64,000 bases of DNA from the NCBI RefSeq assembly GCF_030271835.1, contig NZ_CP127389.1, positions 3,384,001 through 3,448,000 on the forward strand, read 5' to 3'. Below, in pieces: positions 8,795 through 38,924 of the stretch. The notes under the pieces are model-generated. The model did not search any database and was not told the origin of the DNA. It saw nothing but the letters and a program-made list of their open reading frames with translations. Made by a program: the position numbers and the translations under genes. Origin of the DNA: Proteus appendicitidis. GTDB lineage: Bacteria; Pseudomonadota; Gammaproteobacteria; Enterobacterales; Enterobacteriaceae. Position 1 is the stretch's first letter. The number at the start of each line of letters is the position of its first letter.

Positions 8795-8801
8795 TCGAAA
8801 T

Positions 8802-19008: not shown

Positions 19009-19033
19009 GCTATTTTTCCTTATATCAACTTGA

Positions 19034-22176: not shown

Positions 22177-22178
22177 TA

Positions 22179-23327
22179 ATGAAAAATAGTATGAGTGACT
22201 CATCCGTTTATCGTCGCCTTCTTTCTTGTGGCACATTAAGTGTGACGCCAAATTGCTCTATTGAGTTACTTGATGAATTATTTGATATCGCAGAAAGACG
22301 CAATCCTAAGCGTGCATTTTTATTTGTCAGTAAAGTATTAGGTCGTCATATTCCAGTTTCACCGAAAAAAATGCGTGAAACCTACCAAAAACTTGCCCGT
22401 CAATTTCCTGACTCACTTGACGGCCCTGTTCTGTTTATTGGCATGGCAGAAACTGCGGTGGGTTTAGGTGCTGGCATTTTTGATGAAGTGAGAAATCGCT
22501 ATCAACAAACCATTTATTTAACATCAACACGCCACCCTATTGATAAAGGTGAGCTGCTGTGTGAATTTAAAGAAAATCACAGCCACGCGACTGATCACTT
22601 ACTCTATTTGCCTACAACAGCAGAGCAACGCCAATGGGTACAACAAGCAAAAACCGTTGTATTGATTGATGATGAAGCGACTACGGGTAACACCTTTATT
22701 AACCTGCTTTCAGCGCTGCGTGAAGAAGGTGGATTAACCCATATTGAGCAGGTTATAGCGGTAACCTTAACCGATTGGAGTGGTGATTCTATCGCTGAGC
22801 GCTCCCCATTACCGATTAAAACCCTTTCTCTAGTTCAAGGGAAGTGGCAATGGGATGCCGATCCAAATGCGCCTTTACCTGTTATGCCTAATGTTAATAT
22901 CACTGCATCAGGGGAAGTTGCTATCACGGGTAAACAGGGTTGGGGTCGATTAGGAATGACAACGCCCGCAAACGATCTGGGTTTATCCATCAATGCATCT
23001 TTAGGTGAAAAAATCCTTGTTTTAGGATCAGGAGAATTTGTTTGGGAGCCGTTCTTATTAGCTGAACGGCTTGAAAAACAAGGTGCTATCGTAAAATATA
23101 GCTCAACAACGCGTTCACCGATTTCAACTAATTTTGCCATTCAATCAGCAATCACATTTACTGATAATTATGGTTTAGGTATTCCTAATTTCGTCTATAA
23201 CGTGGCACATCAACAATTTGATCGCATTTTGCTTTGTTGTGAAACACCCGCCGAAAGTATTGATAGCCAACTGATTGAAGCCCTCAATAAAGTTGCACCT
23301 ATTGTTGAGGTAATTAGTTATGACTAA
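22179..23327 (+). CDS. Phosphoribosyltransferase with TRSP domain (ter-linked)
   Basis: 382 residues with an N-terminal type I PRTase domain and a C-terminal TRSP domain. Seen: FIGMAETAVGLGAGIFDEV and the PRPP-binding loop VVLIDDEATTGNTFINLLSA (about 163-182), then KQGWGRLGM, GSGEFVWEPFLLAERLEKQG, and the name-giving TTRSPI (about 307-312). Probably transfers a base or base-like group to or from PRPP in the proposed ter metabolite pathway (inference from family and context). It begins 2 bases after the ATP-grasp stop and overlaps the next gene by 8 bases. An ATG four codons further in is an alternative start; neither has a strong ribosome site. Confidence 0.88.
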   Translation: MKNSMSDSSVYRRLLSCGTLSVTPNCSIELLDELFDIAERRNPKRAFLFVSKVLGRHIPVSPKKMRETYQKLARQFPDSLDGPVLFIGMAETAVGLGAGIFDEVRNRYQQTIYLTSTRHPIDKGELLCEFKENHSHATDHLLYLPTTAEQRQWVQQAKTVVLIDDEATTGNTFINLLSALREEGGLTHIEQVIAVTLTDWSGDSIAERSPLPIKTLSLVQGKWQWDADPNAPLPVMPNVNITASGEVAITGKQGWGRLGMTTPANDLGLSINASLGEKILVLGSGEFVWEPFLLAERLEKQGAIVKYSSTTRSPISTNFAIQSAITFTDNYGLGIPNFVYNVAHQQFDRILLCCETPAESIDSQLIEALNKVAPIVEVISYD

Positions 23328-24090
23328 GCCTGTTATTTTAACTGATCTCGATGACACTCTATTTCAAACACGTCGTAAGATGGTGGATGAATTAGCACTA
23401 GAACCCTATAAGACTGGCGCGCTAGATAGAAGCTTAGAACCCCGTAGCTTTATGACTCAAGAGCAAACCCTACTTGTAGATTGGATGTTAGAGCATGCAG
23501 ATTTAATTCCTGTTACCGCTCGTGGAACAGAAGAGATTAGCCGAGTCACTATTCCTTTTCATTCTTGGGCGATTACCACACATGGTGCGGTGATATTGAC
23601 GCCTGAAGGCAACGCTGATGCCCAATGGCAACACCACATCACTCAAAGCTTAGCGCCCTATACACAGCGTTTGTTGACGCTACAACAATCAATTACGCAA
23701 TTAATGGCAGAACGAAACATTGATGGTTGGGCGCGAATTAACTATGAATACGGTGATTTGCCTATTTATTTAGTCATGAAGCATAACGATAGCACCCGAT
23801 TAAGCGAGCTATACGCCATAGGTGATGAGATAGAAAAAATATTCTCAACCGAAGGTTTTTATATTCATCGCAACAGCAACAATATTGCTTGGTTACCGGA
23901 GCCTATCGAAAAAGGCAAAGCGGTCACCTATTTGCTCAATAAATTAAAAGCTGAGCGAGGTGTTTTTCCTGTGATTGGGCTAGGTGATAGCCTAAGTGAT
24001 CATCGCTTTATGAAATTATGCAGTTGGTATGGGCTTCCTCGTCAAAGCCAATTTGCGGATGCGATCAACACAAAAATTTTTGGAGAATAA
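23320..24090 (+). CDS. HAD-family phosphatase (ter-linked, Cof-like)
   Basis: HAD hydrolase of 256 residues. Seen: motif I LTDLDDTLFQT (Asp 9 and 11), motif II VTARGTEEISR, motif III Lys in EPIEKGKAVTYLLNKLKAER, and motif IV GLGDSLSDHRFMKLC, with an inserted C2-type cap between II and III. It would dephosphorylate an intermediate made by the PRTases of the operon (inference). GAGG precedes the ATG, which overlaps the TRSP-PRTase gene; the next start follows after 2 bases, so translation is probably coupled. Confidence 0.87.
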   Translation: MTKPVILTDLDDTLFQTRRKMVDELALEPYKTGALDRSLEPRSFMTQEQTLLVDWMLEHADLIPVTARGTEEISRVTIPFHSWAITTHGAVILTPEGNADAQWQHHITQSLAPYTQRLLTLQQSITQLMAERNIDGWARINYEYGDLPIYLVMKHNDSTRLSELYAIGDEIEKIFSTEGFYIHRNSNNIAWLPEPIEKGKAVTYLLNKLKAERGVFPVIGLGDSLSDHRFMKLCSWYGLPRQSQFADAINTKIFGE

Positions 24091-24092
24091 AC

Positions 24093-25169
24093 ATGATGGA
24101 TCATAAGCCTTTTTCAGGCTCTTATGTATCAGGGGATGTCGATTTCCTACTTCAACCGGTTAATATCGAAATGACGCCCGTTGAGTTAAAAGAAGAGCTG
24201 ATACAATCGGGTAAACGCCACTATTCTGACATGCTAAGTCAAGAGCCAGAGCCAACAACATGGCATTTAGATCTCTTTGAAAAAGCGCTAGAAACAGGTG
24301 CTACACGCTTAGCAACTGAAGTCATAATGTTGGCTAAATCACTGATTGAACGCTTTGGTGATACCCCAATTATCTTAACCAGCCTTGTTCGTGCTGGTGT
24401 TCCTTTAGGCGTCATGTTGCAACAAACATTGCGCAAAATGGGCAGAACCTCTTACCACTACGGCATTAGTATTATTCGAGATAGAGGCATTGATAGCGCA
24501 GCGCTTTCATGGATAGAACAACGCCACGGCACAGAAGGTATTGTATTTGTTGATGGATGGACAGGAAAAGGCGCTATTACAGGTGAACTTATTCGTTCGT
24601 TATCAGGACGAAAAGGCTATCCAGCCCAGCCTCGTCTTGTCGTCCTCGCCGATCCTTGTGGCTGTGCATGGTTAAGTGCCAGCGATGAAGATTGGCTTAT
24701 TCCATTTGGGATCATGGGAGCGCCTGTTTCAGGATTAATTTCACGTTCAATTTGGACTGAAAAAGGCTTTCACGGTTTTGTAGATTGCCAGCATTTAAAA
24801 CAGTATGAATGCAGTCGTTACCTTGTTGATACTGTCGGAAAAGTCGTTGATACATTAATCGATAATGATATTCCACTAGCCACATTTAAAGCACAACAAT
24901 CAGACTTAAAAAAGCTGAGCGAAAACGTCGTTAGTTCACTTGCAAACAAATATGATATTTCAAATATCAATCGTATAAAACCCGGTATTGCTGAAGCCAC
25001 ACGCGCTGTTTTGCGCCGTGTACCTGACCATATTCTGGTCAGGGAAATAACCGATCCTGATGTGGCGTTACTCGTTTATCTTGCACAGGAAAAAAATATT
25101 GCTGTTATTGAAGCAGGGCAAGCGCTTGGTCAGTATCGTGCAGTGACTATCATTAAAAAGGTGAAATAA
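24093..25169 (+). CDS. StiP-family PRTase-like protein with C-terminal PELOTA domain (ter-linked)
   Basis: 358 residues. Databases name this family cysteine protease StiP; comparative genomics instead reads its core as PRTase-like, with a C-terminal PELOTA-type RNA-binding domain. Seen: LVRAGVPLGVMLQQTLRKMG and YHYGISIIRDRGID as the PRTase core, VFVDGWTGKGAITGEL as the PRPP-loop equivalent, CGCAWLSASDEDWLIPFGIM and SRSIW, and the tail IKPGIAEATRAVLRRVPDHI, which opens the PELOTA part (about 270-358). The true start is the ATG at 24093 after GGAGAATAA; the frame is open further upstream inside the HAD gene. The stop overlaps the next start as TAATG. Confidence 0.86.
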   Translation: MMDHKPFSGSYVSGDVDFLLQPVNIEMTPVELKEELIQSGKRHYSDMLSQEPEPTTWHLDLFEKALETGATRLATEVIMLAKSLIERFGDTPIILTSLVRAGVPLGVMLQQTLRKMGRTSYHYGISIIRDRGIDSAALSWIEQRHGTEGIVFVDGWTGKGAITGELIRSLSGRKGYPAQPRLVVLADPCGCAWLSASDEDWLIPFGIMGAPVSGLISRSIWTEKGFHGFVDCQHLKQYECSRYLVDTVGKVVDTLIDNDIPLATFKAQQSDLKKLSENVVSSLANKYDISNINRIKPGIAEATRAVLRRVPDHILVREITDPDVALLVYLAQEKNIAVIEAGQALGQYRAVTIIKKVK

Positions 25170-26113
25170 TGATTGAACGATTATCCCCATGGAATTTAGG
25201 GGCAACGCTTTATATGCCCGCAACACGAACAGATATCGCGACGACAATTATCGACCAGAAAGTTGAAGGGTTACGCTCTTTAATTATCTGTTTAGAAGAT
25301 GCCGTGAGTGATGCCGATATTCCTGTTGCATTAGAAAACTTGGCAACCTTATTAAATACCTTAGCAGAGCACAAAAAAAACAGCGATTGTAGCCATTGGC
25401 CACTGCTGTTTATTCGCCCTCGCCACACTGAAATGGGTCAATGGATCACTGAAAACCTGGATATCAGTGCCATCGATGGTCTTGTTTTGCCTAAGTTTAC
25501 ACAAGTTTCTCTGCCAATTTGGTGGAGTATTATTGAAAACACGCATTTATGTATGATGCCAACACTTGAAACAGAAGAAGTGTTTGATGTTATTCAAATG
25601 ACAGCACTTGCAAACCACTTACTGACTCACCCTTGCCATAAAAGAATTATTGCATTACGTATTGGTGGCAATGATTTAATGAATGTCATTTCGCTTAGAC
25701 GTAATCGCCAATTAACACTTTATGATGGCCCAATGGGTTACGTGATAAAAATGTTAGTTGCTGTCTTTGGCGCTCGCCAATTTGCCCTCACAGCACCTGT
25801 TTGTGAGCATATTGATGATCACCATATTATGGATAAAGAGCTGGCGCTTGATATTGCGAATGGTCTTGTAGGTAAAACAGCGATCCACCCAAAGCAAATT
25901 CATAAAATTGAACAAGCTCTTATGGTGTCTCAATCTGATCATTCAGATGCATTACGTATTTTAAATTCGACACAAGCCGTTTTTAAATCACAAGGTGCAA
26001 TGTGTGAACCCGCAACACATCGTCGCTGGGCATTGAGTATTTTAACCAGAGCTAAAATTTATGGCATTATTCCTAACCAACAAAATAATGCCCAACGTTT
26101 TAATGCAACATAA
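25169..26113 (+). CDS. HpcH/HpaI aldolase / CitE-like lyase (ter-linked)
   Basis: TIM-barrel lyase of 314 residues, last of the five-gene operon. Seen: GATLYMPATRTDIA, IICLEDAVSDADI with acidic metal ligands, LLFIRPRHTEMG with the substrate-binding Arg, GLVLPKFT, MMPTLETEEVF with the metal-binding Glu, ALRIGGNDLM, and GKTAIHPKQI. The fold makes or breaks C-C bonds of CoA thioesters or keto acids; here it probably supplies or attaches a small acid in the proposed metabolite (inference). It starts within TAATG shared with the upstream gene. An inverted repeat at 26140-26164 follows. Confidence 0.88.
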   Translation: MIERLSPWNLGATLYMPATRTDIATTIIDQKVEGLRSLIICLEDAVSDADIPVALENLATLLNTLAEHKKNSDCSHWPLLFIRPRHTEMGQWITENLDISAIDGLVLPKFTQVSLPIWWSIIENTHLCMMPTLETEEVFDVIQMTALANHLLTHPCHKRIIALRIGGNDLMNVISLRRNRQLTLYDGPMGYVIKMLVAVFGARQFALTAPVCEHIDDHHIMDKELALDIANGLVGKTAIHPKQIHKIEQALMVSQSDHSDALRILNSTQAVFKSQGAMCEPATHRRWALSILTRAKIYGIIPNQQNNAQRFNAT

Positions 26114-26139
26114 AATACGCTATAACTAGTGATGAATTT

Positions 26140-26164
26140 GATAAGATAAAATAATTATCTTATC
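26140..26164 (+). terminator. AT-rich hairpin after the ter-linked biosynthetic operon
   Basis: GATAAGATAA / TTATCTTATC, perfect 10-bp arms with a 5-base loop, 26 bases past the aldolase stop; followed by TTGATTTAT, so termination is plausible but weak. Confidence 0.55.
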
Positions 26165-26170
26165 TTGATT

Positions 26171-26215
26171 TATAAGTTTCTAGTTAAAACATGTTATCTT
26201 TAACTAGAACTTATA
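26171..26215. promoter_or_regulatory. 45-bp imperfect palindrome upstream of terW
   Basis: Left arm TATAAGTTTCTAGTTAAA and right arm TTTAACTAGAACTTATA pair over 17 positions with one extra A, around a 10-base loop; the centre itself holds AACATGTT. It lies about 175 bases before terW, in the gap between the two plus-strand ter operons. With no T-run and such long symmetry it could be an operator, for instance for TerW acting on its own gene, or a second terminator. Confidence 0.55.
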
Positions 26216-26389
26216 AAAACAAGACTTACTTTTTTATTTGAAAAAATAAATTTTTTATTTCAATTATCAATTTATACTACATTTAATAGGAAGCTTATTT
26301 TATTTATCCTTGTCAACAGAGAACAAGAATAATAGAAATTATTGCTGAATATTTTAACACACGAATAACAAAACAAGTGGTAACTAAGC

Positions 26390-26875
26390 ATGCAATTAAG
26401 CACTCGTCAGGTCAGAGTCTTTACACTGGCAACCCTTTTAAGCTCAGGAAAAAAGGTTCCAACCATTAAGATTATTTCTGCTCTTGAATGCTCAGAGCCT
26501 ACGTTAACTCGCGTATTAAAAGAGATAAGAGATTCTTATGGTGCTGAAATAAAATACAGCAAAGCCTCTCGCGCATATCAAATGACTGAACGAGGCCAAC
26601 TCGATAGTAAAGCGTTACGCCGTATGCGTGAGGCATTATCCGCCAATGAAGATCTACGCCACAATGGAATGACAAGCCGAGTTTATCTCGATAAAGATAA
26701 AAAGAAATCTGTTTCACTTTCATTAAAAATGTCGGCATTACGCAAGATTGATAGATTATCTTATTTAAATAATTCCACACGTAGTGAAGCTGTTGAATTA
26801 TTAGTTGATCACTATATTGAAAATTTAATTCAATCAACACTTGCTGAAATAGCAGAAAAAGAAAAAAAGAATTAA
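26390..26875 (+). CDS. terW: Ter operon regulator TerW
   Basis: DNA-binding regulator of 161 residues. Seen: an N-terminal winged HTH-like half (about 1-75) with SALECSEPTLTRVLKEIRDS and KASRAYQMTERG, and a C-terminal ribbon-helix-helix-like half with KSVSLSLKMSALRKIDRLSY and NNSTRSEAVELLVDHYIENL. E. coli TerW, about the same length, was reported to bind the terZABCDE promoter region. Here it lies alone between the biosynthetic operon and the terY operon, with its own hairpins on both sides. The ribosome site is weak. Confidence 0.92.
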   Translation: MQLSTRQVRVFTLATLLSSGKKVPTIKIISALECSEPTLTRVLKEIRDSYGAEIKYSKASRAYQMTERGQLDSKALRRMREALSANEDLRHNGMTSRVYLDKDKKKSVSLSLKMSALRKIDRLSYLNNSTRSEAVELLVDHYIENLIQSTLAEIAEKEKKN

Positions 26876-26884
26876 AAGTAAATA

Positions 26885-26926
26885 ATATAAAGTAACTTAA
26901 TATCTCAGTATCAAGTTACTTTATAT
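26885..26926 (+). terminator. Terminator-like hairpin after terW
   Basis: 14-bp arms (ATATAAAGTAACTT and complement) around a 14-base loop, 10 bases after the terW stop codon; AT-rich and without a long T-run. Confidence 0.6.
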
Positions 26927-27421
26927 AAAATAGAAAAATAGAAAAATAGAAACAAAATAAAAAATATATAAAAACTTATTTTATAAAGTTGATTTATATA
27001 TTTATCCACTCACTTATTTTATTTTAAATTACTTCCAAAAATAAAAAAATAATAATACATTAATGCTTTGAATTTATTGGTTTTTATAATTATTACTATT
27101 TTTAGTTAAAATCGTGTTTATACTTAATCATTATTAGCTATTCATTTGATATTACTCTTATTAAGATGATCCAATAAGATATATTTCCTTTAAAGAAAAT
27201 AAAATAAAATCGCTCCATTACTCAATTCAAAGGGGGTAAATAGGTTAATTCTTCTTTTATTTTACTTTTCATACTATCTTCATTCGGATTAATAATATTG
27301 GACAATCATCACTGCGTTTTTCCTCTAATTTAATTAAACTAAGCATAATCTCAATTGAACACCTTCACGAGTCGGTTAGTATATTAATCGCTTATCTCTA
27401 TCTCACTCACAGGATTAATGC
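26927..27421. other. AT-rich spacer upstream of the terY operon
   Basis: About 500 bases without a convincing ORF. It should hold the promoter of the terY1 operon. I looked for the ATCAT/ATGAT palindrome seen upstream of terZ and found none here; imperfect pairing exists between CTCTTATT (27154 region) and AATAAGATA (27173 region). Confidence 0.6.
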
Positions 27422-28060
27422 ATGAGAAGATTGCCAGTTTACCTTTTACTTGATACATCGACTTCCATGTATGGAGAACCTATTGCAGCAGTAAAAAATG
27501 GCGTTGAAATGCTCTTATCAACACTACGCCAAGATCCTTACGCATTAGAAACAGCTTATATTTCTATCATCACCTTTGACTCAACCGCACAACAAGTTGT
27601 GCCACTCACTGATTTAATCAATTTTAAAGTACCTGATTTAGTCGCAAGTGGAACAACAGCATTAGGTTCTGCGCTCACTTTAGTTTCTAGTCGTATTGAA
27701 AAAGAAGTACAAAAAACGACGGCTGAAACAAAAGGCGATTGGCGCCCGTTAGTTTTTGTGATGACAGATGGCGCTCCCACAGACGATTGGAAAAAAGGCG
27801 TTGAGAAATTTAAAGCGGCACGCACTGGCGTTGTTATTGCGTGTGCAGCAGGACGATCAGCACAAACTGATGTCCTAAAAAACATCACTGAAATTGTATT
27901 ACAGCTAGATACTGCGGATGCCAATACCATTAAGTCATTCTTTAAGTGGGTTTCAGCCAGTATTTCTGTCGGTAGTCAAAAAGTCGATTTAACTAAGAAA
28001 GATATTAGTGATCTTGATGACTTACCACCGCCACCTCCTGAGGTTAACGTTGTACTTTAA
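27422..28060 (+). CDS. terY1: vWA-domain protein TerY1
   Basis: Stand-alone von Willebrand factor A domain of 212 residues, cytoplasmic. Seen: opening MRRLPVYLLLDTSTSM with MIDAS residues D11, S13, S15; the MIDAS Thr region in VASGTTALGSAL; and VFVMTDGAPTDDW with the MIDAS Asp. It ends in a low-complexity tail LPPPPPEVNVVL that recurs in terY2. vWA domains make metal-dependent protein contacts; in ter systems they are thought to bridge TerD-type proteins and the phosphatase/kinase pair. It is first in the terY1-terX-terY2 run, 17 bases before terX. AGGA lies before the ATG. Confidence 0.93.
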   Translation: MRRLPVYLLLDTSTSMYGEPIAAVKNGVEMLLSTLRQDPYALETAYISIITFDSTAQQVVPLTDLINFKVPDLVASGTTALGSALTLVSSRIEKEVQKTTAETKGDWRPLVFVMTDGAPTDDWKKGVEKFKAARTGVVIACAAGRSAQTDVLKNITEIVLQLDTADANTIKSFFKWVSASISVGSQKVDLTKKDISDLDDLPPPPPEVNVVL

Positions 28061-28077
28061 ATAAAAAAGGAATGAAT

Positions 28078-28719
28078 ATGTCTGTTAGTTTAAAAAAAGG
28101 ACAAGGTGTTAGTTTAAAGAAAAATGAATATGACCTTTCCTCTGTCACTATTGGTTTAGGTTGGGATATCAACGAAGAAAAACGCGGATTCCTTGGTGGG
28201 CTTTTTGGTAAAAAAAGCGAAGAATACGATTTAGATGTTATTGCTTTCTTATGTGGCGAAAACGGCAAAGTAAACGATTTAGGTGCCATTGAAGGTGGAC
28301 AACCCTCTCTCGTCAATGGTGATATTATTTTCTTTAATAGCCTACAACACAAATCAGGACAGATTTGGTTAACGGGTGATAACCGAACTGGCGCAGGTGA
28401 TGGCGATGATGAGCAGATCATCGTGAAATTAAACACACTAGATCCTAAATTTACCAAAATCGTCTTTATTGTTCAGATTTACAATGGTCGAGAACGACAA
28501 CAACACTTTGGTAAAGTACAAAACGCCTTTATCCGTGCTGTTGATGCAAAAAATGTCGAAATGGCTCGTTTTGATTTATCGGGAGGCGAAGCCTTCAACA
28601 ACCAACGTTCCATGCTGTTTGCTGAATTAGTCAGAGAAGAGAATGGCTGGAAACTTAACGCCATTGGAGAGCCTTCAAGTTCAGATAGCTTTATTTCTTA
28701 CTTAAAGGATTTCGCCTAA
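28078..28719 (+). CDS. terX: TerD-family protein TerX
   Basis: TerD-fold protein of 213 residues lying between terY1 and terY2, as in the E. coli terWY1XY2Y3 arrangement. Seen: MSVSLKKGQGVSLKKNE with the doubled SLKK, IGLGWD at 25-30, a Gly-rich insert GFLGGLFGKK also found in TerZ, the acidic loop GDNRTGAGDGDDE at 100-112, and SMLFAELVREENGWKLNAIG near the end. An ATG six bases upstream overlaps the ribosome site AAAGGA, so the ATG at 28078 with proper spacing is preferred. Stop overlaps terY2 start as TAATG. Confidence 0.93.
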   Translation: MSVSLKKGQGVSLKKNEYDLSSVTIGLGWDINEEKRGFLGGLFGKKSEEYDLDVIAFLCGENGKVNDLGAIEGGQPSLVNGDIIFFNSLQHKSGQIWLTGDNRTGAGDGDDEQIIVKLNTLDPKFTKIVFIVQIYNGRERQQHFGKVQNAFIRAVDAKNVEMARFDLSGGEAFNNQRSMLFAELVREENGWKLNAIGEPSSSDSFISYLKDFA

Positions 28720-29357
28720 TGAGAAGACTTCCTGTTTACTTGCTGATTGATACTTCAGGATCAATGAGAGGTGAATCTATTCATGCAGTTAACGTGGGGA
28801 TACAAACCATGCTTAATGCATTGAGACAAGATCCTTACGCATTAGAAAGCGTGCATATCTCTATCATTACCTATGATAACGAGGCTCGTGAATTTATCCC
28901 ATTAACTGCATTAGAAGATTTCCAATTCTCCGATATCACAGTGCCTAGCTCTGGCGGCACTTTCACGGGTGCTGCGCTGGAGTGTTTAATCAAGTGTGTC
29001 GATCGTGATATTAAACGTTCCGATGGTGACCAAAAAGGTGATTGGCGCCCTCTCGTCTTTTTAATGACGGATGGCACACCTTCTGATGCTTATGCCTACG
29101 GTGAAGCGATTAAAGAAGTGAAAAAGCGCTCATTTGGTTCGATCATCGCTTGCGCTGTTGGTCCTAAAGCCAAACACGATCACCTTAAAGAGCTTACCTC
29201 TCAAGTGGTTGCTTTAGAAACGCTAGACTCTAATGCCTTCTCTGGCTTTTTTAAATGGGTTTCTGCCAGTGTCGCATCTGGCAGTTCAAGTGCAGGAGTG
29301 AATACGGATAAAGACACCCTACCGCCGCCGCCTCCTGAAATCCAACTGGTATTGTGA
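28719..29357 (+). CDS. terY2: vWA-domain protein TerY2
   Basis: vWA protein of 212 residues, paralogue of terY1. Seen: MRRLPVYLLIDTSGSM with MIDAS D11, S13, S15, the SSGGTFTGAAL loop, VFLMTDGTPSDAY, and the C-terminal tail LPPPPPEIQLVL matching terY1. Start is coupled to terX by TAATG. A strong terminator follows, so terY3 onward may be transcribed at lower level or separately. Confidence 0.93.
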   Translation: MRRLPVYLLIDTSGSMRGESIHAVNVGIQTMLNALRQDPYALESVHISIITYDNEAREFIPLTALEDFQFSDITVPSSGGTFTGAALECLIKCVDRDIKRSDGDQKGDWRPLVFLMTDGTPSDAYAYGEAIKEVKKRSFGSIIACAVGPKAKHDHLKELTSQVVALETLDSNAFSGFFKWVSASVASGSSSAGVNTDKDTLPPPPPEIQLVL

Positions 29358-29362
29358 TCCAC

Positions 29363-29394
29363 AAAAGCAAAGCGCTTCAAAAGGCTTTGCTTTT
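29363..29394 (+). terminator. Terminator between terY2 and terY3
   Basis: AAAAGCAAAGC / GCTTTGCTTTT, perfect 11-bp arms with a 10-base loop, followed by ATTTTATT; six bases past the terY2 stop. It may fully separate, or attenuate into, the terY3-phosphatase-kinase genes. Confidence 0.88.
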
Positions 29395-29462
29395 ATTTTA
29401 TTCAGGCTTTGATTTACCCATCACAATACATAACAGCCACGATAAAGTAATAAGGTATAACA

Positions 29463-30503
29463 ATGAGAAGGCTACCCATTTTCTTTGTTTTAGATTGTTC
29501 AGAATCCATGATCGGTGAAAACCTAAAAAAGATGAATGACGGTCTAACGACGATTATTAGCGACCTAAGGCGAGATCCGCACGCTCTTGAAACTGCTTGT
29601 ATCTCTGTTATCGCTTTTGCTGGCGTTGCAAAAACGATTGTTCCACTCACTGAAGTCGTCTCTTTTTATCCTCCTCAACTTCCTTTAGGAGGAGGCACTT
29701 CATTAGGCAGCGCATTACGAGAACTTTCTCACCAAATCGACACTCAAGTAAGAAAAACCACACTTGAGCAAAAAGGCGATTGGAAACCTGTCGTTTACCT
29801 TTTAACTGACGGCAGACCGACTGATGATTGCGCGCAAGAGATCAAACGCTGGAAAGCTCACTACGCCAACAAAGTTAACTTAATTGCGATTGGATTAGGC
29901 TTAAGCGCAGACTTACATGTACTGTCGCAATTAACTGAAAATGTGCTGTTATTTACCGAAGCACAAGAAGGTGATTTTACTCGTTTCATTAAATGGATAA
30001 CGATGTCAGTGGTTTCTCATAGCCGAAGTGTTGGCGAAGAGGCACCACCACTTTTAAGTCAAACAGAGCATATTGTTCGTCTTGCAAAAGATGATGTTGC
30101 TCGTGCCTATGATGAATCTTGTGTCACTTTCGTCGGGCGTTGTAGCCACACTCGTTCACCTTATTTAATGAAATATGAACGTCCACCAATGAAAGCTTCA
30201 GGGCTTGATTTTAACCTCAATCTTAATGGCTTTAATTTAACAGGTTGCTACACCTTAAATGAAGATTACTTTGCATGGAGTGATCTCAGCGCCACGGCAT
30301 ATCAAGTTAACACCAGCGAACTTCATGGTACACCCGGTTGCCCTTATTGCGGCAATGCGACTGCTTTTGCCGTTTGCCAATGTGGTAAATTACTCTGTGT
30401 AAATGGCCCTGAAACCGTTATTTGTCCTTGGTGTGATAACAACATCACCTTTGGAGATAACAGCAACCAATCTGACTTTGATGTCACACGAGGTAAAGGC
30501 TAA
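29463..30503 (+). CDS. terY3: vWA protein TerY3 with C-terminal zinc ribbon
   Basis: 346 residues: an N-terminal vWA domain (about 1-200) and a C-terminal TerY-C zinc-ribbon region. Seen: MRRLPIFFVLDCSESM with MIDAS D11, S13, S15, LGGGTSLGSAL, VYLLTDGRPTDDC, then VTFVGRCSHTRSPYLMKYER, and a Cys array CPYCGN ... CQCGKLLCVNGP ... CPWCDNN near the end that would bind zinc. It lacks the polyproline tail of terY1/terY2. It is the vWA member of the TerY-PP2C-kinase triad described by comparative genomics. Its stop overlaps the PP2C start (TAATG). Ribosome site AAGG. Confidence 0.92.
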   Translation: MRRLPIFFVLDCSESMIGENLKKMNDGLTTIISDLRRDPHALETACISVIAFAGVAKTIVPLTEVVSFYPPQLPLGGGTSLGSALRELSHQIDTQVRKTTLEQKGDWKPVVYLLTDGRPTDDCAQEIKRWKAHYANKVNLIAIGLGLSADLHVLSQLTENVLLFTEAQEGDFTRFIKWITMSVVSHSRSVGEEAPPLLSQTEHIVRLAKDDVARAYDESCVTFVGRCSHTRSPYLMKYERPPMKASGLDFNLNLNGFNLTGCYTLNEDYFAWSDLSATAYQVNTSELHGTPGCPYCGNATAFAVCQCGKLLCVNGPETVICPWCDNNITFGDNSNQSDFDVTRGKG

Positions 30504-31999
30504 TGGATAAAAAAGCCCTACTCAGAAAACTGATTATTGATGACACGCTGACACAACATCGCATTCCTGTACATGAGGAGCTTGTTATTGCGCTGTATGA
30601 AGATATGGAAATCGCTCAACACATTGATTTTATTATCGATAAAATTAACGCTAAAACGGCAGAAAAAATCACACCACAAGACAAGACACAACCTATTCTT
30701 CTGTTATTACCACCCGCTCGTAATTTAGCCGGTGAAGAAACATCATTAACAGAAGATAGCTCATTAAAGCCTGGTCAAATTCCAACGCACTCGTCGCCAA
30801 TGCCAACAGAAAAACCGATTATTCATCGCCCTACGGCAAAAATTACCCTTTCTAATGCCAAAGTAGGTACAGCGTTCAATTCTACGCTCAGTATCGAGCT
30901 AAATACCCTCGAAATTGCCGAAATTGATGCGGTTGATATTCCTGAAGGGCTTGGAATAACCTTTGATCATGAAAATCGCTGCTTAGTGGGTATGCCAACA
31001 AACAGTGGCAATTTCACATTGATTGTCCATTGGTCTGTTAATGCCGTTTGCTATCACGATGAAGTCTTATTAATCATCAATCCTGATCCGCGTAGCTTAT
31101 GGCAAATCAATGAACCTCCCGCGGATAGCCCTTATCCCAAAGCCCATATAGATAGCAAACTTATTCTTGAAGAAGATATTCGAATTGCGGCAGCAAGCCG
31201 TCGTGGGCGTTCTCATGAACATGCCGGCACATTCCGTGATGATGATTTTTATATTCACCACGATAATCACAGCCAATGGAATATTTTAATTGTTGCTGAT
31301 GGTGCAGGCAGCGCTCGCTATTCTCGCGAAGGCTCTCGCATTGCTATCAATACTGTAAGCCATTATTTAAAATCACAATTAAGCGTGAAAAATGATGCAT
31401 TTAAACCCCATCTTGAAGCCATTCATCAATGGAATGACGCCAACGCCATTAATCAAGTGGGTAGCTTCTTTGCTCAACTCTTTCGTAATGCGGCACAATT
31501 AGCGGTTAATAACCTCAAAAACGAAGCTATACATATTAATGAGCCTGTAAAATCTTTTTCTACTACGTTATTAGCTACGGTTTCTTTACGTATCAATGAT
31601 GAGTTATTTGCCGCCTCCTTTTGGATGGGAGATGGTGCGATTGCCGCTTATGGTCCTGCCGGAAAAGTGCGCATTTTAGGTATTCCTGATAGTGGTGAAT
31701 ATGCAGGACAAACCCGTTTTCTTGATGATAGTGCGCTCAACGATGCGGAATTTAATCGACGCATTATTATTGGTAAATGGAAAGAAATTTCACATCTTAT
31801 TTTAATGACAGATGGGGTGTCCGATCCGGTATTTGAAACCGATAATGGCTTACAAGATCCCAATAAATGGGCTGCACTCATTGATGAAATATCGCCTTGT
31901 TTAGCCTCTCCTGAAAATGCAAATAACGCATTGGCTGAATGGCTGAATTTCTTTTCAGCAGGCAATCACGATGACCGCACTCTGGTTGTGGCTTGGTAA
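30503..31999 (+). CDS. PP2C-type serine/threonine phosphatase (TerY-associated)
   Basis: 498 residues. N-terminal part: a short helical region (1-60), a Pro/Ser/Thr-rich linker and an immunoglobulin-like segment (about 110-195, PTAKITLSNAKVGTAF ... FTLIVHWSV). C-terminal PP2C domain from about 225: RRGRSHEHAGTFRDDDFYIH, the metal-binding VADGAGSARYSREGS (DGAG at 266-269), FWMGDGAIAAYGP, and LMTDGVSDPVF. It would reverse phosphorylation by the kinase encoded 18 bases downstream. It is coupled to terY3 by overlapping stop and start. Targets are unknown; TerD-family or TerY proteins are the obvious candidates (inference). Confidence 0.9.
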   Translation: MDKKALLRKLIIDDTLTQHRIPVHEELVIALYEDMEIAQHIDFIIDKINAKTAEKITPQDKTQPILLLLPPARNLAGEETSLTEDSSLKPGQIPTHSSPMPTEKPIIHRPTAKITLSNAKVGTAFNSTLSIELNTLEIAEIDAVDIPEGLGITFDHENRCLVGMPTNSGNFTLIVHWSVNAVCYHDEVLLIINPDPRSLWQINEPPADSPYPKAHIDSKLILEEDIRIAAASRRGRSHEHAGTFRDDDFYIHHDNHSQWNILIVADGAGSARYSREGSRIAINTVSHYLKSQLSVKNDAFKPHLEAIHQWNDANAINQVGSFFAQLFRNAAQLAVNNLKNEAIHINEPVKSFSTTLLATVSLRINDELFAASFWMGDGAIAAYGPAGKVRILGIPDSGEYAGQTRFLDDSALNDAEFNRRIIIGKWKEISHLILMTDGVSDPVFETDNGLQDPNKWAALIDEISPCLASPENANNALAEWLNFFSAGNHDDRTLVVAW

Positions 32000-32017
32000 T
32001 CATAAAAGAGAGAATGG

Positions 32018-33526
32018 GTGAATTTCATGGCAGAGATCATTACCTGTACAACGCAAAGTGGAAAAACAGTTCAGTACGTCAATGAGATCATTGGCTCTGG
32101 CTCTATGAAAGATGTCTATTTTTCCCCAGACCGAACCTACGTTGTCGCCTTCTATAAAACAAAACAGAATGCACAAGCCAAAGATAGAATCGATATGATA
32201 ACAGGCTCTTATCGACATAATATCTTTGAACAAAGTGGTGGAGAATATTGGAAAAACCTCTTTTGCTGGCCAACAGATGTTGTCGAACATCAAGGCAAAA
32301 TTGGTATTGTTGTTCCAACTTATCAATCCCACTTTTTCTTTAAATATGGCTCTAAAAACAATGACTTTCTTGCGATAAAAGGTCGAGAAAAAGAAGGTAA
32401 ATGGTTTGCAAGTGCCAATAACCAAAATAAATTTCTCGATCCTCGTGAAAGAGGCAATCTATTAAATTATCTGAAAGTCTGTTTATTGCTTTCTCGTGCT
32501 GTACGTCGAATGCATGCAGCAGGCTTATGTCACAGTGATTTAAGCTATAAAAACGTCCTTATCGATCCTGAGCAAGGTCATGCCTGTGTTATTGATATTG
32601 ACGGTTTAGTGGTTCCAGGGAAATACCCCCCAGATGTAGTGGGAACACCTGATTTTATTGCACCTGAAGTGGTAAAAACCGGCCATTTACCGAAAGAAGA
32701 TCCTAACCGTATCTTGCCAAGCATCACAACAGATAGACACGCACTTGCGGTATTAATCTATATGTATCTGTTTTATCGACACCCATTACGGGGCGGTAAA
32801 ATTCACGATCTTGACGATGAAATGCGCGATGAAACACTCTCTATGGGCGAAAAAGCGTTGTTTATTGAGCACCCAACTGATCGTAGCAATGCCGTAAAAC
32901 TTAATCAGGTAAAATCGTCATCACTACCTTGGGCTGATCCTGAAAAAATCCCATACACGATTATGGGGCCGTACTTAACGCCTCTTTTTGAAAGAGCCTT
33001 TATGACAGGATTACACGATCCTTCACAACGCCCAACCGCAGATGAATGGGAAACGGCTTTAGTCAAAACGGTAGATTTAGTTCAGCCTTGCCAAAATAAA
33101 GATTGTGAACAGCAATGGTATGTTTTTTCAGGCAAAACACAGCCTGTTTGCCCCTATTGTCACACGCCTTATAAAGGTCAATTGCCGATTTTAAATCTCT
33201 ACTCTTCGCGCAAGGCAGGTAGCTTTAGACCTGACGATCACCGCTTAATGGTTTGGAGTAATCAATCACTCTTTCCTTGGCATGTTAATCGCCTTATTGC
33301 GCCCAATGAACGTACCACTGATGAACAAAAAAAACGTGTCGGTTATTTTGTTTATCACAACTCAACATGGTGGCTGGTTAATGAGCGTATTGAGGGATTG
33401 ATGGTATTGCCAGAAAAAAAACAGATAGCCATTGGCGATAAAATTGCCCTAACTGATGGATTACAATTTGTGTTATCAACAGAAGAAGGCGGACGACTGG
33501 TTGTGGTGCAATTAGTCTCAAATTAA
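32018..33526 (+). CDS. Serine/threonine protein kinase-like protein with zinc ribbon (TerY-associated)
   Basis: 502 residues. Protein-kinase domain about 20-350: Gly-rich loop IGSGSMKDVY (25-34), ATP-anchoring Lys in VVAFYK (47), catalytic loop HSDLSYKN (Asp174, Asn179), and DID in place of DFG (Asp193), then GTPDFIAPEV. After it come a zinc ribbon (CQNKDCEQQW ... CPYCHTPY) and a C-terminal region of about 110 residues. The GTG at 32018 follows a GAGAG site; an ATG three codons later is possible. Last gene of the ter supercluster, with a terminator after it. Catalytic residues are present, so it is probably active, though distant from Hanks kinases. Confidence 0.88.
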   Translation: MNFMAEIITCTTQSGKTVQYVNEIIGSGSMKDVYFSPDRTYVVAFYKTKQNAQAKDRIDMITGSYRHNIFEQSGGEYWKNLFCWPTDVVEHQGKIGIVVPTYQSHFFFKYGSKNNDFLAIKGREKEGKWFASANNQNKFLDPRERGNLLNYLKVCLLLSRAVRRMHAAGLCHSDLSYKNVLIDPEQGHACVIDIDGLVVPGKYPPDVVGTPDFIAPEVVKTGHLPKEDPNRILPSITTDRHALAVLIYMYLFYRHPLRGGKIHDLDDEMRDETLSMGEKALFIEHPTDRSNAVKLNQVKSSSLPWADPEKIPYTIMGPYLTPLFERAFMTGLHDPSQRPTADEWETALVKTVDLVQPCQNKDCEQQWYVFSGKTQPVCPYCHTPYKGQLPILNLYSSRKAGSFRPDDHRLMVWSNQSLFPWHVNRLIAPNERTTDEQKKRVGYFVYHNSTWWLVNERIEGLMVLPEKKQIAIGDKIALTDGLQFVLSTEEGGRLVVVQLVSN

Positions 33527-35266: not shown

Positions 35267-35980
35267 TTAAAACTCAAGATTTCGAATAAAACGATAATCC
35301 GCAGACGCCTTTTTAAGTCGATACAGACTCGCTGGGCGTCCTCTCTCTGCCCGTTTTTCTCCAGTATCAATCAATAAATCTGCTTGTTCGATGCGTCGTC
35401 TAAAGGATTTTTTCTGGATTTCTTTACCAATCAAAATTTCATGAACATGTTGCAACTCTGGCAAGGTAAAGACTTCTGGCAATGCAAATCCGGGAACAAT
35501 CGAATAAAGTGATTTTTGCTTTAATCGCTCTCTCGCTTGTGTAATTAATTCATGGTGATCAAACGCTAAGCTTTGTTGTGCAATCTCATTGATAGGACAC
35601 CATATTACCGAATCCACGCTATCAATATGTGCTTCACACACTTGATGCGCAATCAACGCGGTATAACAAACCGTCACCGACCAACCTCTTGCGTCACGCT
35701 GGTTATTTCCCACTGAACAGAGTTGCTCAATATAAGGGGGGATCACACCTGTTTTCTCTTTTAATTTTCTTAGCACAGTATCTTCAAGGCAGTTGTCCTG
35801 CACTTCATCGACAAATCCACCGGGTAAACCCCATTTCCCTTTTTCAGGATGCTCCGCTCTTTTCACTAACAATACTTTTAACTGCTCTTCATGATAAGTA
35901 AACAGTACCGCATCAACCGTAATCAATGGAGATAGGAAATCACGGCGGTTATAGCTGGCTAAAAAATCTTGTTCATTCAT
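35267..35980 (-). CDS. NrtR-type Nudix-domain transcriptional regulator
   Basis: 237 residues: an N-terminal Nudix domain (about 18-145) and a C-terminal winged HTH (about 155-237). Seen: LITVDAVLFTYHEEQLKVLL, the Nudix box region GLPGGFVDEVQDNCLEDTVL with RKLKEKTGV in place of REL-EE-G (the metal-binding Glu pair is altered, suggesting loss of hydrolase activity), then SFRRRIEQADLLIDTGEKR and RGRPASLYRLKK as the wing. NrtR proteins repress NAD-metabolism genes and respond to ADP-ribose. Start at 35980 (MNEQDFLASYNRRDF); a longer frame to 36109 would read through the operators. Divergent from an SPFH and NAD-kinase-like pair. Confidence 0.88.
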   Translation of the reverse strand: MNEQDFLASYNRRDFLSPLITVDAVLFTYHEEQLKVLLVKRAEHPEKGKWGLPGGFVDEVQDNCLEDTVLRKLKEKTGVIPPYIEQLCSVGNNQRDARGWSVTVCYTALIAHQVCEAHIDSVDSVIWCPINEIAQQSLAFDHHELITQARERLKQKSLYSIVPGFALPEVFTLPELQHVHEILIGKEIQKKSFRRRIEQADLLIDTGEKRAERGRPASLYRLKKASADYRFIRNLEF

Positions 35981-36042: not shown

Positions 36043-36120
36043 TTGTCATAAAGACACTAAATCGGTTGACAAGAATAGTGTCGATAAGACACAATTCAGT
36101 TGTTGTCATAAAGACACTAA
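36043..36120. promoter_or_regulatory. Three NrtR-type operators over the SPFH/NAD-kinase-like promoter
   Basis: Two exact 18-bp direct repeats, TTGTCATAAAGACACTAA, at 36043-36060 and 36103-36120, start 60 bases apart. Between them is a palindrome GTGTC-GATAA-GACAC at 36078-36092. All three share TAGTGTC-N5-GAC when oriented alike. They bracket and overlap a promoter TTGACA (36066-36071)-N18-CACAAT (36090-36095) for the plus-strand genes. The GTC...GAC symmetry resembles published NrtR sites, and the NrtR-type gene is adjacent; binding is inferred. Confidence 0.8.
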
Positions 36121-36133
36121 CTGGAGAAAGACT

Positions 36134-37153
36134 ATGTTTAACTTAAATTACTTTAAAGCAGACTCATCAACATTCATTATTAAATCGGTAAATGGCAAAA
36201 TTCGCCAGCAAGGTAAAGGCTTGAGTTTTTGGTATAACTCCGCCACAACCTCTATTGCGGCACTACCTTTAAACGCCCAAGAAGCGCCGTTTATTTTCAA
36301 CTTCCAAACCTCGGACTTTCAGGGTTTACGCATCCAAGGGCAAATTTCATTTCAGGTCAAAATGCCTGAAAAAGCCGCAGAAGTACTCAACTTTAACTTG
36401 AGCAAAAACGGCAAATCTTATGCCTCTGAAGATCCACTAAAACTCAGTGATCGTGTTGTGCGTATTGCACAAACTTTAATTCAAGCAAAGATCCAAAGTA
36501 CACCTCTTAGAGAAGCGTTATTACTTAGCCAATCATTAGTCACTTTGGTGATGGAACAATTAATTGAACACCCATCATTAGAAGCATTAGGTATTGCAAT
36601 TTTAGATGTCTCTATTGCGGCAATCACGCCATCACCAGAAACCTTAAAAGCACTCGAAGCCGAAGCGAGAGAATCCTTACTGAAAGAAGCTGATGATGCC
36701 ATTTATGCACGTCGTAAATTCTCAGTAGAACAAGAGCGCACCATTAAAGAGGCTGAATTAGAAACCGATTTATCTGTTCAACGTAAACGTCAAGAAATCG
36801 AAGAAGCACGTTTAGAAAACGAACGTACATTATTGCGTGAACAAGCAGAGATTGAAAAAGAGCGCCTTGAAGCGAAGGTTAATGCAGAAGCGAAACGCAA
36901 AGAACTGGTGGCGTTAAGTGCTGAAAATCAGCGAACACAATCAGAAGCCGATGCTTATGCTATTGAAGCGACTATGCGTGCTTATCGTGAATTGCCAGTT
37001 GAAAACCTAAAAGCCATGGCACTCGCGAAAATGGACTCACAACAATTAATGGCAATGGCATTTGAAACCTTAGCGCTGAATTCAGGAAAAATCGGCGAAT
37101 TGAATATCACCCCTGATTTATTTAGCCAATTTATGAAAAAAGGGAGTAAATAA
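36134..37153 (+). CDS. SPFH/band 7 domain protein without transmembrane segment
   Basis: 339 residues. Seen: an SPFH-like domain (about 1-165; GLSFWYNSATTSIAALPLNA, FQTSDFQGLRIQGQISFQVK, LGIAILDVSIAAITPSPET), a long Glu/Arg/Ala-rich coiled coil (about 170-270), and a helical tail ending LFSQFMKKGSK. SPFH proteins (stomatin, prohibitin, flotillin, HflK/C) usually form ring-like membrane scaffolds, but this one lacks an N-terminal hydrophobic anchor, so it is soluble or peripheral. Its stop overlaps the next start as TAATG. GGAGAAAG precedes the ATG at 36134, just after the third operator. Function unknown. Confidence 0.85.
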   Translation: MFNLNYFKADSSTFIIKSVNGKIRQQGKGLSFWYNSATTSIAALPLNAQEAPFIFNFQTSDFQGLRIQGQISFQVKMPEKAAEVLNFNLSKNGKSYASEDPLKLSDRVVRIAQTLIQAKIQSTPLREALLLSQSLVTLVMEQLIEHPSLEALGIAILDVSIAAITPSPETLKALEAEARESLLKEADDAIYARRKFSVEQERTIKEAELETDLSVQRKRQEIEEARLENERTLLREQAEIEKERLEAKVNAEAKRKELVALSAENQRTQSEADAYAIEATMRAYRELPVENLKAMALAKMDSQQLMAMAFETLALNSGKIGELNITPDLFSQFMKKGSK

Positions 37154-38097
37154 TGCAACGTAACGAAGATTTTCGTTTTGTGCTGGTGATGAGAAAAAGC
37201 CGTTTACAGGAATTAATTGAACGCTTTAATACTTGGTCACAAGCCAAATTCTATTTAGAACACAACAATGTTGAGGTAACGGATTACCTCAACGAACACA
37301 ATTTATATCAAAAGCAACTAACAGAAGCTGAACTGATTTTAAAATCATTAGGACGTTTTCAACTTTTAGAAAGAGGTTTACTACCTAGTTATCAATTCTC
37401 ATCCCACGATATTGTGGTCGTAATCGGTCAAGATGGGCTGGTCGCCAATACGCTGAAATACCTTAATGGGCAGCCTATTATTGCCATCAATCCCGACCCA
37501 TCACGATGGGATGGTAAATTATTACCGTTCGAAATTGGACAATTAAAAGAGACGGTAATTAATACCATTAATCAAAAAATGCCGTTTAAATCTGTGACCT
37601 TTGCGCAAGCGACAACCAATGATGGTCAATCACTGTTAGCCGTTAATGATTTATTTATTGGCCCCAAAAGCCACACGTCTGCACGCTATATTTTACAATG
37701 GAACGGTGCTGAAGAAGTACAATCCTCATCAGGGATTATTGTGTCTACGGGGCTTGGCTCAACAGGGTGGTTTCAATCTATTCTCGCGGGAGCGATGGCA
37801 ATTACAGGGGAAGCGTCACATCCCCTGTTACAAGGATTTAGCTGGGGTGACAAAAAGCTGCAATTTAGTGTGAGAGAACCGTTTCCAAGTCGAACAACCG
37901 GTGTAGCTATGACCTTTGGGACAATAGAGCCTGATTCACCGTTACAATTAGGATCTTTGATGCCTGAAAATGGCGTGATTTTCTCTGATGGCATCGAAGA
38001 TGACTATTTACAATTTAATGCAGGTTGCATTGCTCATATTGGTATCGCTGACATACAAGGGCAATTAATTAGCCAAAAAGGACGTCAGCGTATTTAA
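37153..38097 (+). CDS. NAD kinase-like (ATP-NAD kinase fold) protein
   Basis: 314 residues with an NAD kinase/diacylglycerol kinase fold. Seen: a non-typical N-terminal helical part (1-85), VVVIGQDGLVANTLKYL corresponding to the GGDG motif with its catalytic Asp kept, LLAVNDLFIG in place of the NE motif (Asn kept, Glu replaced by Asp), and STGLGSTGWFQSILAGA for the GSTA motif, then an all-beta region with IFSDGIEDDYLQF. It could phosphorylate NAD or another nucleotide, or bind one as a sensor. It is translationally coupled to the SPFH gene and governed by the NrtR-type operators, which points to NAD(P) metabolism (inference). Confidence 0.82.
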   Translation: MQRNEDFRFVLVMRKSRLQELIERFNTWSQAKFYLEHNNVEVTDYLNEHNLYQKQLTEAELILKSLGRFQLLERGLLPSYQFSSHDIVVVIGQDGLVANTLKYLNGQPIIAINPDPSRWDGKLLPFEIGQLKETVINTINQKMPFKSVTFAQATTNDGQSLLAVNDLFIGPKSHTSARYILQWNGAEEVQSSSGIIVSTGLGSTGWFQSILAGAMAITGEASHPLLQGFSWGDKKLQFSVREPFPSRTTGVAMTFGTIEPDSPLQLGSLMPENGVIFSDGIEDDYLQFNAGCIAHIGIADIQGQLISQKGRQRI

Positions 38098-38098
38098 T

Positions 38099-38124
38099 AG
38101 CCTGATAGATAACTTTATCAGGCT
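38099..38124. terminator. Terminator between the NAD-kinase-like gene and the methyltransferase
   Basis: AGCCTGATA / TATCAGGCT with an 8-base loop, followed by TAATTTTAG; lies just past the plus-strand stop and 36 bases from the convergent methyltransferase stop. Confidence 0.88.
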
Positions 38125-38159
38125 TAATTTTAGTTCAATCAATTAACTAGCTGAATACA

Positions 38160-38924
38160 CTATAATATATTTATTTGCAGTTTAGCGGCAGCAATCATAA
38201 ACATTGGCGTCGAGCGATAAAGTACTTTACGTTTTTCATCATACACTTGCTCATTAATATTGGTTAAACAAGTCAATGCTGAATAACCGAGAGTAACTAG
38301 CGTATCAAGATCCCATTGTGGCCTAATTTTTTGACACATTGGCATGCTTTTGCGGTAATCGAGCATTGCATCGCTATAACCTGCTGGCTTTTCATTAAAC
38401 AGTTCCGTATATGCTGCAATATCTTCACTATTTTTCTGGTTTAAAGCGTCATCAAATAAATAACGATTCCAGTTAGCATCAAAAATCAGCGTTCTTGCTC
38501 CCGGTTTTAAAACACGTAACCACTCTTTATAACCTTGTTTTGCATCTAATAACGTCCATGCCACATTACGGCTAATCACCAAATCAAAGTGATCATCAGG
38601 AAAAGGCAAACAATGGCTATCACCTTGCATGACTTCCACATCAACTTGGTAGGCTTCAAAGTTTTTCTTCGCAACATCAACCATTGCTTCAGTGCAATCT
38701 ATTGCTGTCACTTTATGCCCTGCTTTCGCCATAATGATAGAGAAAAAGCCGGGGCCAGTTCCCACATCCAGTACCTTTAATTTGCCTTGCTGACCACAAT
38801 ATTCATGAATAATATTCAACCACGCTTCTCGCTGAAAACCGTTTAACTCGAGTTGGATCAAATTACTGTAATTTTCAGCACCTTCAGTCCAATTTTTTAA
38901 TAATTTATCTTTTGAGTCCTGCAT
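38160..38924 (-). CDS. Class I SAM-dependent methyltransferase
   Basis: 254 residues. Seen: motif I KVLDVGTGPGFFSIIMAKAG, VTAIDCTEAMVDVAKKNF with the acidic motif II, MQGDSHCLPFPDDHFDLVIS, RNVAWTLLDAKQGYKEWLRVLKPG (shown here as two parts, RNVAWTLLDA and KEWLRVLKPG). It resembles UbiE-like small-molecule methyltransferases; the substrate is not evident. It lies downstream of the NikA-like gene in the same direction, 90 bases away with a hairpin between, so it may be the last gene of the metal-uptake operon. A role in metal or metallophore chemistry is conjecture. Confidence 0.85.
   Translation of the reverse strand: MQDSKDKLLKNWTEGAENYSNLIQLELNGFQREAWLNIIHEYCGQQGKLKVLDVGTGPGFFSIIMAKAGHKVTAIDCTEAMVDVAKKNFEAYQVDVEVMQGDSHCLPFPDDHFDLVISRNVAWTLLDAKQGYKEWLRVLKPGARTLIFDANWNRYLFDDALNQKNSEDIAAYTELFNEKPAGYSDAMLDYRKSMPMCQKIRPQWDLDTLVTLGYSALTCLTNINEQVYDEKRKVLYRSTPMFMIAAAKLQINIL

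Follow-up and report, generated by a model that had tools for sequence, protein, structure and literature searches.

A conserved Proteus locus in which an NrtR-type repressor gene adjoins a gene pair for a soluble SPFH protein and a putative NADK2-like kinase

Introduction

NrtR proteins are repressors that combine a Nudix domain with a winged helix. The Shewanella protein (PDB 3gz5, 3gz6 and 3gz8) is listed under nicotinamide utilization in a section of PMC3223726. For a mycobacterial NrtR, a portion of PMC6800001 reports that hydrolysis of ADP-ribose was undetectable and that ADP-ribose releases the repressor from DNA, at a concentration printed as 50 mM. Section 3.8 of PMC9503650 describes NadV salvage in phages together with ARG-centred host systems that employ Nudix repressors. 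Here we analyze a 64-kb stretch of the Proteus appendicitidis chromosome (the window; G000:C1:3384001-3448000 of a 4.1-Mb, one-contig genome), in which an nrtR gene is divergent from a gene pair, nrtX and nrtY, encoding an SPFH protein and a protein of NAD-kinase fold. All positions given below are those of the window, unless a locus (L number) is named; genomes carry G numbers.

The module has already been named. The orthologue P0059 from Providencia heimbachae is called ‘NrtY’ in UniRef. The name ‘NrtR-regulated NrtX’ is given to several orthologues in Providencia and to one in Methylomonas. In Providencia the gene order is the same as ours and identity is ~80%; the named module does not differ in kind from ours, and no function accompanies the names in the database listings. 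Among the papers listed, our literature search found no published function for NrtX or NrtY, with most subscription papers, including Rodionov 2008, lying outside it. The same search found no paper joining NrtR or NADAR with SPFH, or SPFH with NAD kinase (with or without Nudix). Rodionov 2008 is said to name such genes and may describe them, and de Souza and Aravind reportedly treated NAD-utilising pathways in 2012. Overall, the nrtR-nrtX-nrtY module is real and conserved. Our sequence comparisons add an apparent kinship of NrtY with NADK2, a setting among ADP-ribose-repair genes that is seen in some lineages, and one putative viral copy. We give about even credence to the reading that NrtR, NrtX and NrtY form an ADP-ribose-induced module of the NAD(H)-kinase type that acts when NAD is consumed.

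Results and discussion

An NrtR-type repressor gene divergent from a coupled gene pair

The repressor gene nrtR (35267-35980, minus strand) faces away from nrtX (36134-37153, plus strand; 339 amino acids) and nrtY (37153-38097, plus strand; 314 amino acids). The nrtX stop codon and the nrtY start codon share one base in the sequence TAATG, which suggests translational coupling of the two genes. NrtR matches PF21906 (82 bits) and PF00293 (50.1 bits), both above cut-off, and is identical to Shewanella NrtR (3gz5) at 163 of 236 residues (69%). Its Nudix box reads RKLKEK where that of Shewanella NrtR reads RKLAEK, and the same catalytic Glu residues are gone from both proteins. The protein scores 260 bits against the NCBIfam equivalog NF050029, short of the cut-off of 400, and is thus not that exact equivalog.

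Regulation of nrtXY by NrtR is well supported by this homology. Because we found no second NrtR in the genome, which has its own NadR, NrtR appears to be dedicated to the nrtXY operon. This would set it apart from Shewanella NrtR, listed with nicotinamide or NAD use in the section of PMC3223726 concerned, whereas nrtXY is the only clear target in the genome of the window.

NrtX matches PF01145 (Band_7) with 38.6 bits against a cut-off of 23.6, and its orthologues named ‘NrtR-regulated NrtX’ are ~80% identical to it. Its highest 19-residue Kyte-Doolittle mean is 1.55, with no transmembrane-like stretch, consistent with a soluble protein. A sequence search of the PDB found no relative of NrtX (best E 0.079). 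Members of the SPFH superfamily form oligomers, and by analogy we infer that NrtX does so as well. A first-pass annotation of this DNA had proposed an NrtR-type regulator without the Glu pair of its Nudix box, divergent from coupled genes for an NAD-kinase-fold protein and an SPFH protein without a membrane anchor, and each of these points held up.

Three operators conserved across Proteus

Three candidate operators lie between nrtR and nrtX. Operator 1 (36043-36060, minus strand) has the palindromic core TGTC-N5-GACA at 36044-36056, and operator 3 (36103-36120, minus strand) is an exact 18-bp copy of it. Operator 2 (36076-36091, plus strand) fills the spacer of a candidate nrtXY promoter, TTGACA-18-CACAAT (36066-36095, plus strand), and overlaps its second hexamer. 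This promoter was found in a consensus scan with 10 of 12 matches, in which two promoter-like sites were found against 0.9 expected in shuffles. Exact copies of TGTCN5GACA begin at 36044, 36079 and 36104, with a fourth copy in the window at 10472. The single design of the three sites, with two of them identical, is as first annotated.

The extended pattern TAGTGTCN5GACA has three exact matches in the genome, all at the nrtR-nrtX promoter region. Since we estimate that ~2 would be expected by chance, the evidence for these operators lies in their clustering within 75 bp and in their conservation rather than in their number. Each of the ten other Proteus loci (L004-L013) has all three, as do L014, L017 and, with a mismatch in one site, L016; the spacings differ from those in the window by at most 2 bp. 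L015 retains two. More distant loci carry other types of palindrome, from which the operator sequence is seen to drift between clades. In L040 and L083-L087, nrtR is upstream and co-directional, and inspection by eye places TTAGTGT-N7-ACACTAA-like palindromes just 5′ of it; among these six loci, a one-mismatch operator core is found at the same position in L083 and L084, and at a second palindrome in L085. L037-L039 instead carry AGTTG-type palindromes, again identified by eye.

NrtY is related to NADK2

A PDB search with the single NrtY sequence placed human NADK2 first (6.2e-5). A profile of 18 members matched NADK2 at an E-value of 6.6e-21 and the best classical NAD kinase at 6.4e-6, with others weaker. 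Segments common to NrtY and mitochondrial NADK2 (PDB 7r4j and 7n29) are N-x-DP-x-R, SSG, TGxGS-x-W (also written TGxGSxxW) and REP; NrtY differs in having GQDG for GGDG, in being shorter, and in having an SPFH partner. Database labels for NrtY homologues are mostly ‘sugar kinase’ or ‘diacylglycerol kinase’. We rejected an ordinary sugar or lipid kinase, because every PDB match with a profile E below 0.01 is an NAD kinase, counting 2an1, whose title is ‘putative kinase’, in line with the NAD-kinase kinship first proposed. On these comparisons NrtY is a protein of NAD-kinase fold in the NADK2 branch, with putative kinase activity.

The genome also encodes its own canonical NadK, with GGDG, NE, SDG and ATPTGSTAY motifs. 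Weak profile matches and the N-[D/E] motif place NrtY in the same fold family as bacterial NadK, but NadK has GGDG, SDG and TPTGSTAY where NrtY has GQDG, SSSG and TGxGSTGW. The first-pass annotation was right that the Asp of GGDG is kept; its further statement that the NE motif departs from the norm did not stand, as NrtY of the window has N-D and distant members have N-E. The changed motif is GGDG itself, where Gln takes the place of the second Gly in every member of two overlapping alignments, one of 18 and one of 63 sequences. Both alignments keep the Asp of GxDG and the Asn of N-[D/E] without exception, as they do SSSG.

These motifs bear on whether NrtY is an enzyme at all. The altered GGDG in every aligned member, together with the near-constant SPFH partner described below, would suit a pseudokinase, a non-catalytic sensor that reads NAD or ADP-ribose and controls SPFH assembly. 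We consider this very unlikely: the invariance of the motif Asp, N165 and SSSG in the 18 and 63 members is unlike what a decayed enzyme would show.

The SPFH-kinase pair recurs far beyond Proteus

NrtY is sporadically distributed. Counting the own or centre genome in each case, we found matches in 13 of 398 genomes of a phylum sample (one of them, G376, being weak, with 28% identity over part of the protein), in 14 of 369 genomes of a class sample (with G649 and G654 matching in pieces and G719 as a fragment), in 17 of 250 genomes of family f11, and in 3 of 247 genomes of the window’s order. In a second class the only match among 240 genomes was the centre genome itself. Matches also occur in 73 plasmid records, of which 42 are from Rhizobium and others from Cupriavidus, Treponema and Streptomyces; some plasmid matches are shortened copies beside tet(H).

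We compared synteny in 54 non-Proteus loci (L014-L019, L035-L045, L079-L090, L095, L096, L099-L102, L110, L111 and L113-L129). Six of these (L095, L096 and L099-L102) were hand-picked from plasmid listings, some already bearing an SPFH label. The set leaves out Proteus loci L004-L013, copies in other hosts that are nearly identical to the Proteus type or are shortened versions of it (L002, L003 and L020-L022), plasmid loci L097 and L098, the weak match in G376 (L034), the G719 fragment (L075), and duplicate loci. An SPFH gene lies directly upstream of the kinase gene on the same strand in 51 of the 54, including loci from Spirochaetota and Actinomycetota, so that the pair co-occurs well beyond close relatives. 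Of the remaining three, L088 and L110 start at a contig end that falls within the kinase region, leaving L080 as the one genuine exception. The distance from NrtR to the SPFH gene is at most 0.6 kb in 35 loci. In six more (L018, L095, L111, L121, L128 and L129), NrtR is farther off within the stretch examined, with L111 and L121 giving a weak or partial match.

ADP-ribose and NAD genes adjoin nrtY in some lineages

Family f11 is probably Burkholderiales, because one of its loci, L037, shares 73-76% DNA identity with plasmids of Cupriavidus, Polaromonas and Variovorax. Among the 17 f11 loci (L037, L038 and L113-L127), seven carry a gene for NADAR, DraG or DUF4291. In L037 and L116, SPFH, kinase, NADAR and DraG genes lie in this order on one strand beside nrtR, with a DUF4291 gene before NADAR in L037 only, and one to three of these genes lie within ~6 kb in L113, L118, L121, L125 and L126. 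Outside this family, a Pseudomonadales metagenome-assembled genome (L018) has NADAR, a MavL-type macrodomain, nrtR, DraG, a 2OG-Fe(II) oxygenase, SPFH and the kinase. In addition, L128, from the window’s order, has NADAR, DraG and NrtR, and NadA directly follows the kinase in L087. ADP-ribosylglycohydrolase is present in L018, L037, L110, L116, L121, L125, L126 and L128, and we found none beside the operon of the window.

The 17 f11 genomes contain six NADAR genes, five of them within 2 kb of nrtY and the sixth (in G246) ~560 kb away. With random placement in 5 Mb, the chance of finding five of six within 3 kb either side is ~1e-14, although the five cases are not fully independent, as G196 and G1169 share a genus. 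DraG gives 15 matches over cut-off at 14 places (two rows in G1180 overlap), of which five lie within 4 kb of nrtY (G196, G1053, G1110, G1169 and G1183) and nine do not. The association of NADAR and DraG with nrtY is strong, and confined to some lineages.

The same neighbours bear on the main rival explanation, in which NrtY phosphorylates not NAD but ADP-ribose or an ADP-ribosylated product, detoxifying or tagging ADP-ribose freed by NADAR, DraG or NADases. The inducer is expected to be ADP-ribose, the genome already has a canonical NadK, GQDG suggests an altered substrate, and the NADAR genes and DraG places counted above lie close to nrtY. Nevertheless, the nearest relatives of known activity are NAD(H) kinases and most loci have no ADP-ribose hydrolase nearby, and we judge this alternative unlikely. 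If NrtY did phosphorylate ADP-ribose, it would constitute a new step in ADP-ribose metabolism.

DUF4291 genes recur beside NADAR, DraG and nrtXY (L037 8060-8776, L110 523-1284, L118 7195-7791, L121 7079-7672 and L126 2972-3574). Our literature search found no paper mentioning this domain, which may be another ADP-ribose enzyme.

A proposed response to NAD breakdown

Returning to the reading of an ADP-ribose-induced, NAD(H)-kinase-type module, we propose that its job is probably to manage NAD during NAD breakdown, because in some relatives it adjoins genes for removing ADP-ribose and because its repressor is expected to sense ADP-ribose. Without ADP-ribose, NrtR would sit on the three palindromes and block the nrtXY promoter, as its close similarity to Shewanella NrtR suggests. 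When NAD is split or spent on ADP-ribosylation, free ADP-ribose would enter the dead Nudix pocket and release NrtR, by the precedent of its family, and NrtX and NrtY would then be produced together. From its fold and motifs, NrtY is predicted to phosphorylate the 2′-OH of the adenosine ribose, most likely of NAD(H), as do NADK2 and NadK. Part of the NAD pool would thereby become NADP(H), which many NAD consumers could not use and which would support repair. NrtX may assemble into a soluble SPFH oligomer and in that form hold or gate NrtY, a role suggested by their near-constant pairing. In Proteus, the module would work alongside a NadK and a NadR of the usual kind. Elsewhere, in some bacteria, NADAR and DraG encoded next to the module would set the inducer free as they strip ADP-ribose marks. 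The result would be a feedback: ADP-ribose, whether from NAD breakdown or from the stripping of such marks, would switch on the kinase, and a share of the pool would be kept safe as NADP(H).

Several results weigh against this reading. NrtY has no match to the Pfam NAD-kinase family (PF01513) at E 1 or better, reaches at best 23 bits against a cut-off of 211 with NCBIfam NAD-kinase models, and has the Gly-to-Gln change in GGDG described above. NADAR, DraG and DUF4291 are all missing from 10 of the 17 f11 loci, and NrtR was not found in 13 of the 54 loci of the synteny set, which include loci at contig ends. In the Proteus, Providencia and Xenorhabdus loci examined, the module has no ADP-ribose or NAD gene beside it. 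The link to ADP-ribose or NAD chemistry that was first suggested is supported by NADAR, DraG and NadA neighbours in some relatives and by none in Proteus. None of the three outcomes that the first-pass annotation named as fatal to its proposal turned up in these data: the genes are not confined to close relatives, the operators are present in relatives, and NrtY is no ordinary sugar or lipid kinase by its profile matches. As for the operators, the pattern first annotated is not enriched in the window at two mismatches (31 matches versus 28.3 in shuffles). With one mismatch there are 25 matches in the genome versus 53 for a reversed control, which also gives no support to a wider NrtR regulon. 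Finally, a single-region palindrome shuffle test is weak, with part of 19 regions below 0.05 and the window region at 0.073, and the operator case therefore rests on conservation.

With this module, a link of ADP-ribose sensing to an SPFH scaffold and a non-mitochondrial NADK2-type protein can be put to the test, and its NADAR, DraG, macrodomain, NadA and NadV-like neighbours in some lineages point to first assays. If NrtY makes NADP on demand under NAD attack, the module would represent a new type of response to NADases and ADP-ribosyltransferases.

A putative viral copy and the defence context

A 257-kb contig from a viral collection (IMGVR_UViG_3300023296_000874; L111) encodes NrtR-like, ClpP, SPFH, kinase and NadV-like proteins within 7 kb on one strand. 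Its kinase is 33% identical to NrtY of the window and adjoins the NadV-like gene. The NrtR-like protein scores 24.5 bits for NUDIX and 19.8 bits for NrtR_WHD, the latter below the cut-off of 27. The NadV-like protein scores 20.3 bits for NAPRTase, just below the cut-off of 20.8, and 22.5 bits for PHROG 448, nicotinamide phosphoribosyl transferase. The phage status of this contig rests on IMG/VR and on a match of the ClpP-like protein to head-maturation-protease PHROGs, which a cellular ClpP might also give. A second contig from the viral collection, L110, begins inside the kinase gene and continues with DUF4291, NADAR and DraG. Since its kinase part is 99% identical to L037, L110 is probably a piece of bacterial DNA from the edge of a prophage.

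L111 also contains two look-alike genes (214-1179 and 1900-2853), the second of which matches the C-terminal domain of phosphatidylglycerol lysyltransferase, and a lysyl-type class II tRNA synthetase gene (10663-12156).

An anti-phage role, or counter-defence against ADP-ribosylation (in phages, counter-counter-defence), could account for the viral contig with its NadV-like gene, for the sporadic distribution seen in f11, and for the NADAR, DraG and macrodomain neighbours, which recall the ARG-centred systems of section 3.8 of PMC9503650. However, at an E-value of 0.001 PADLOC assigned none of the three proteins to any family, and a search of 50,697 phage records with the kinase of the window gave no match. 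Scans with the L111 kinase and SPFH proteins returned no viral contig beyond L111 itself, and every Proteus locus found carries the operon outside any recognised defence island. We regard a defence role as distinctly unlikely; the phage attack that the first-pass annotation suggested as a setting has indirect support, from the one viral contig. The likeness to the ARG-centred systems lies in a Nudix-type repressor and, in some relatives of nrtY, in DraG, NADAR or macrodomain genes. The differences are that the locus of the window has no ADP-ribose hydrolase and that the main text of PMC9503650 has no match for SPFH, NAD kinase, NADK or DUF4291.

A bolder proposal, to which we attach a low probability, would make NrtX and NrtY a soluble, SPFH-caged nucleotide kinase for NAD or for ADP-ribose freed in ADP-ribosylation attack. 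Induced by the ADP-ribose that these repair enzymes release, it would supply a NADAR/DraG/macrodomain network of ADP-ribose repair with its missing kinase arm, and would serve as counter-defence in at least one giant phage, beside a NAD-salvage gene.

Flanking genes and tet(H)

Upstream of the nrt locus, the window contains a tellurite-resistance-type cluster (TerC/TerD-like, VWA, TerY-like, PP2C and kinase genes) and an ATP-grasp/phosphoribosyltransferase operon (17478-33526; assigned by eye except for the kinase). The data do not support this cluster as part of the module, as its kinase gene was not found in six non-Proteus loci (L014-L019), examined over up to 6 kb on each side.

In four Proteus loci (L004, L008, L010 and L012; ~6945-8865), a tetR/tet efflux pair lies a few bases behind nrtY; no tet gene follows nrtY in the window (38097-38160). 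On plasmids from Moraxella and an uncultured bacterium (L097 and L098), nrtY and an annotated tetR(H)-tet(H) pair are joined; of nrtY, other plasmids retain only the end. Because tetR/tet pairs lie behind nrtY in Proteus and plasmids carry nrtY or its end with tet(H), these arrangements suggest the 3′ end of nrtY in a Proteus-type chromosome as the place from which mobile tet(H) departed. Plasmid pNP7-1 of Moraxella osloensis (L097, 156-12748) carries TerD, VWA, TerY-C, PP2C and kinase genes, an esterase gene, nrtRXY and tet(H), ordered as in the chromosome of the window, and its nrt part is 91% identical to the window.

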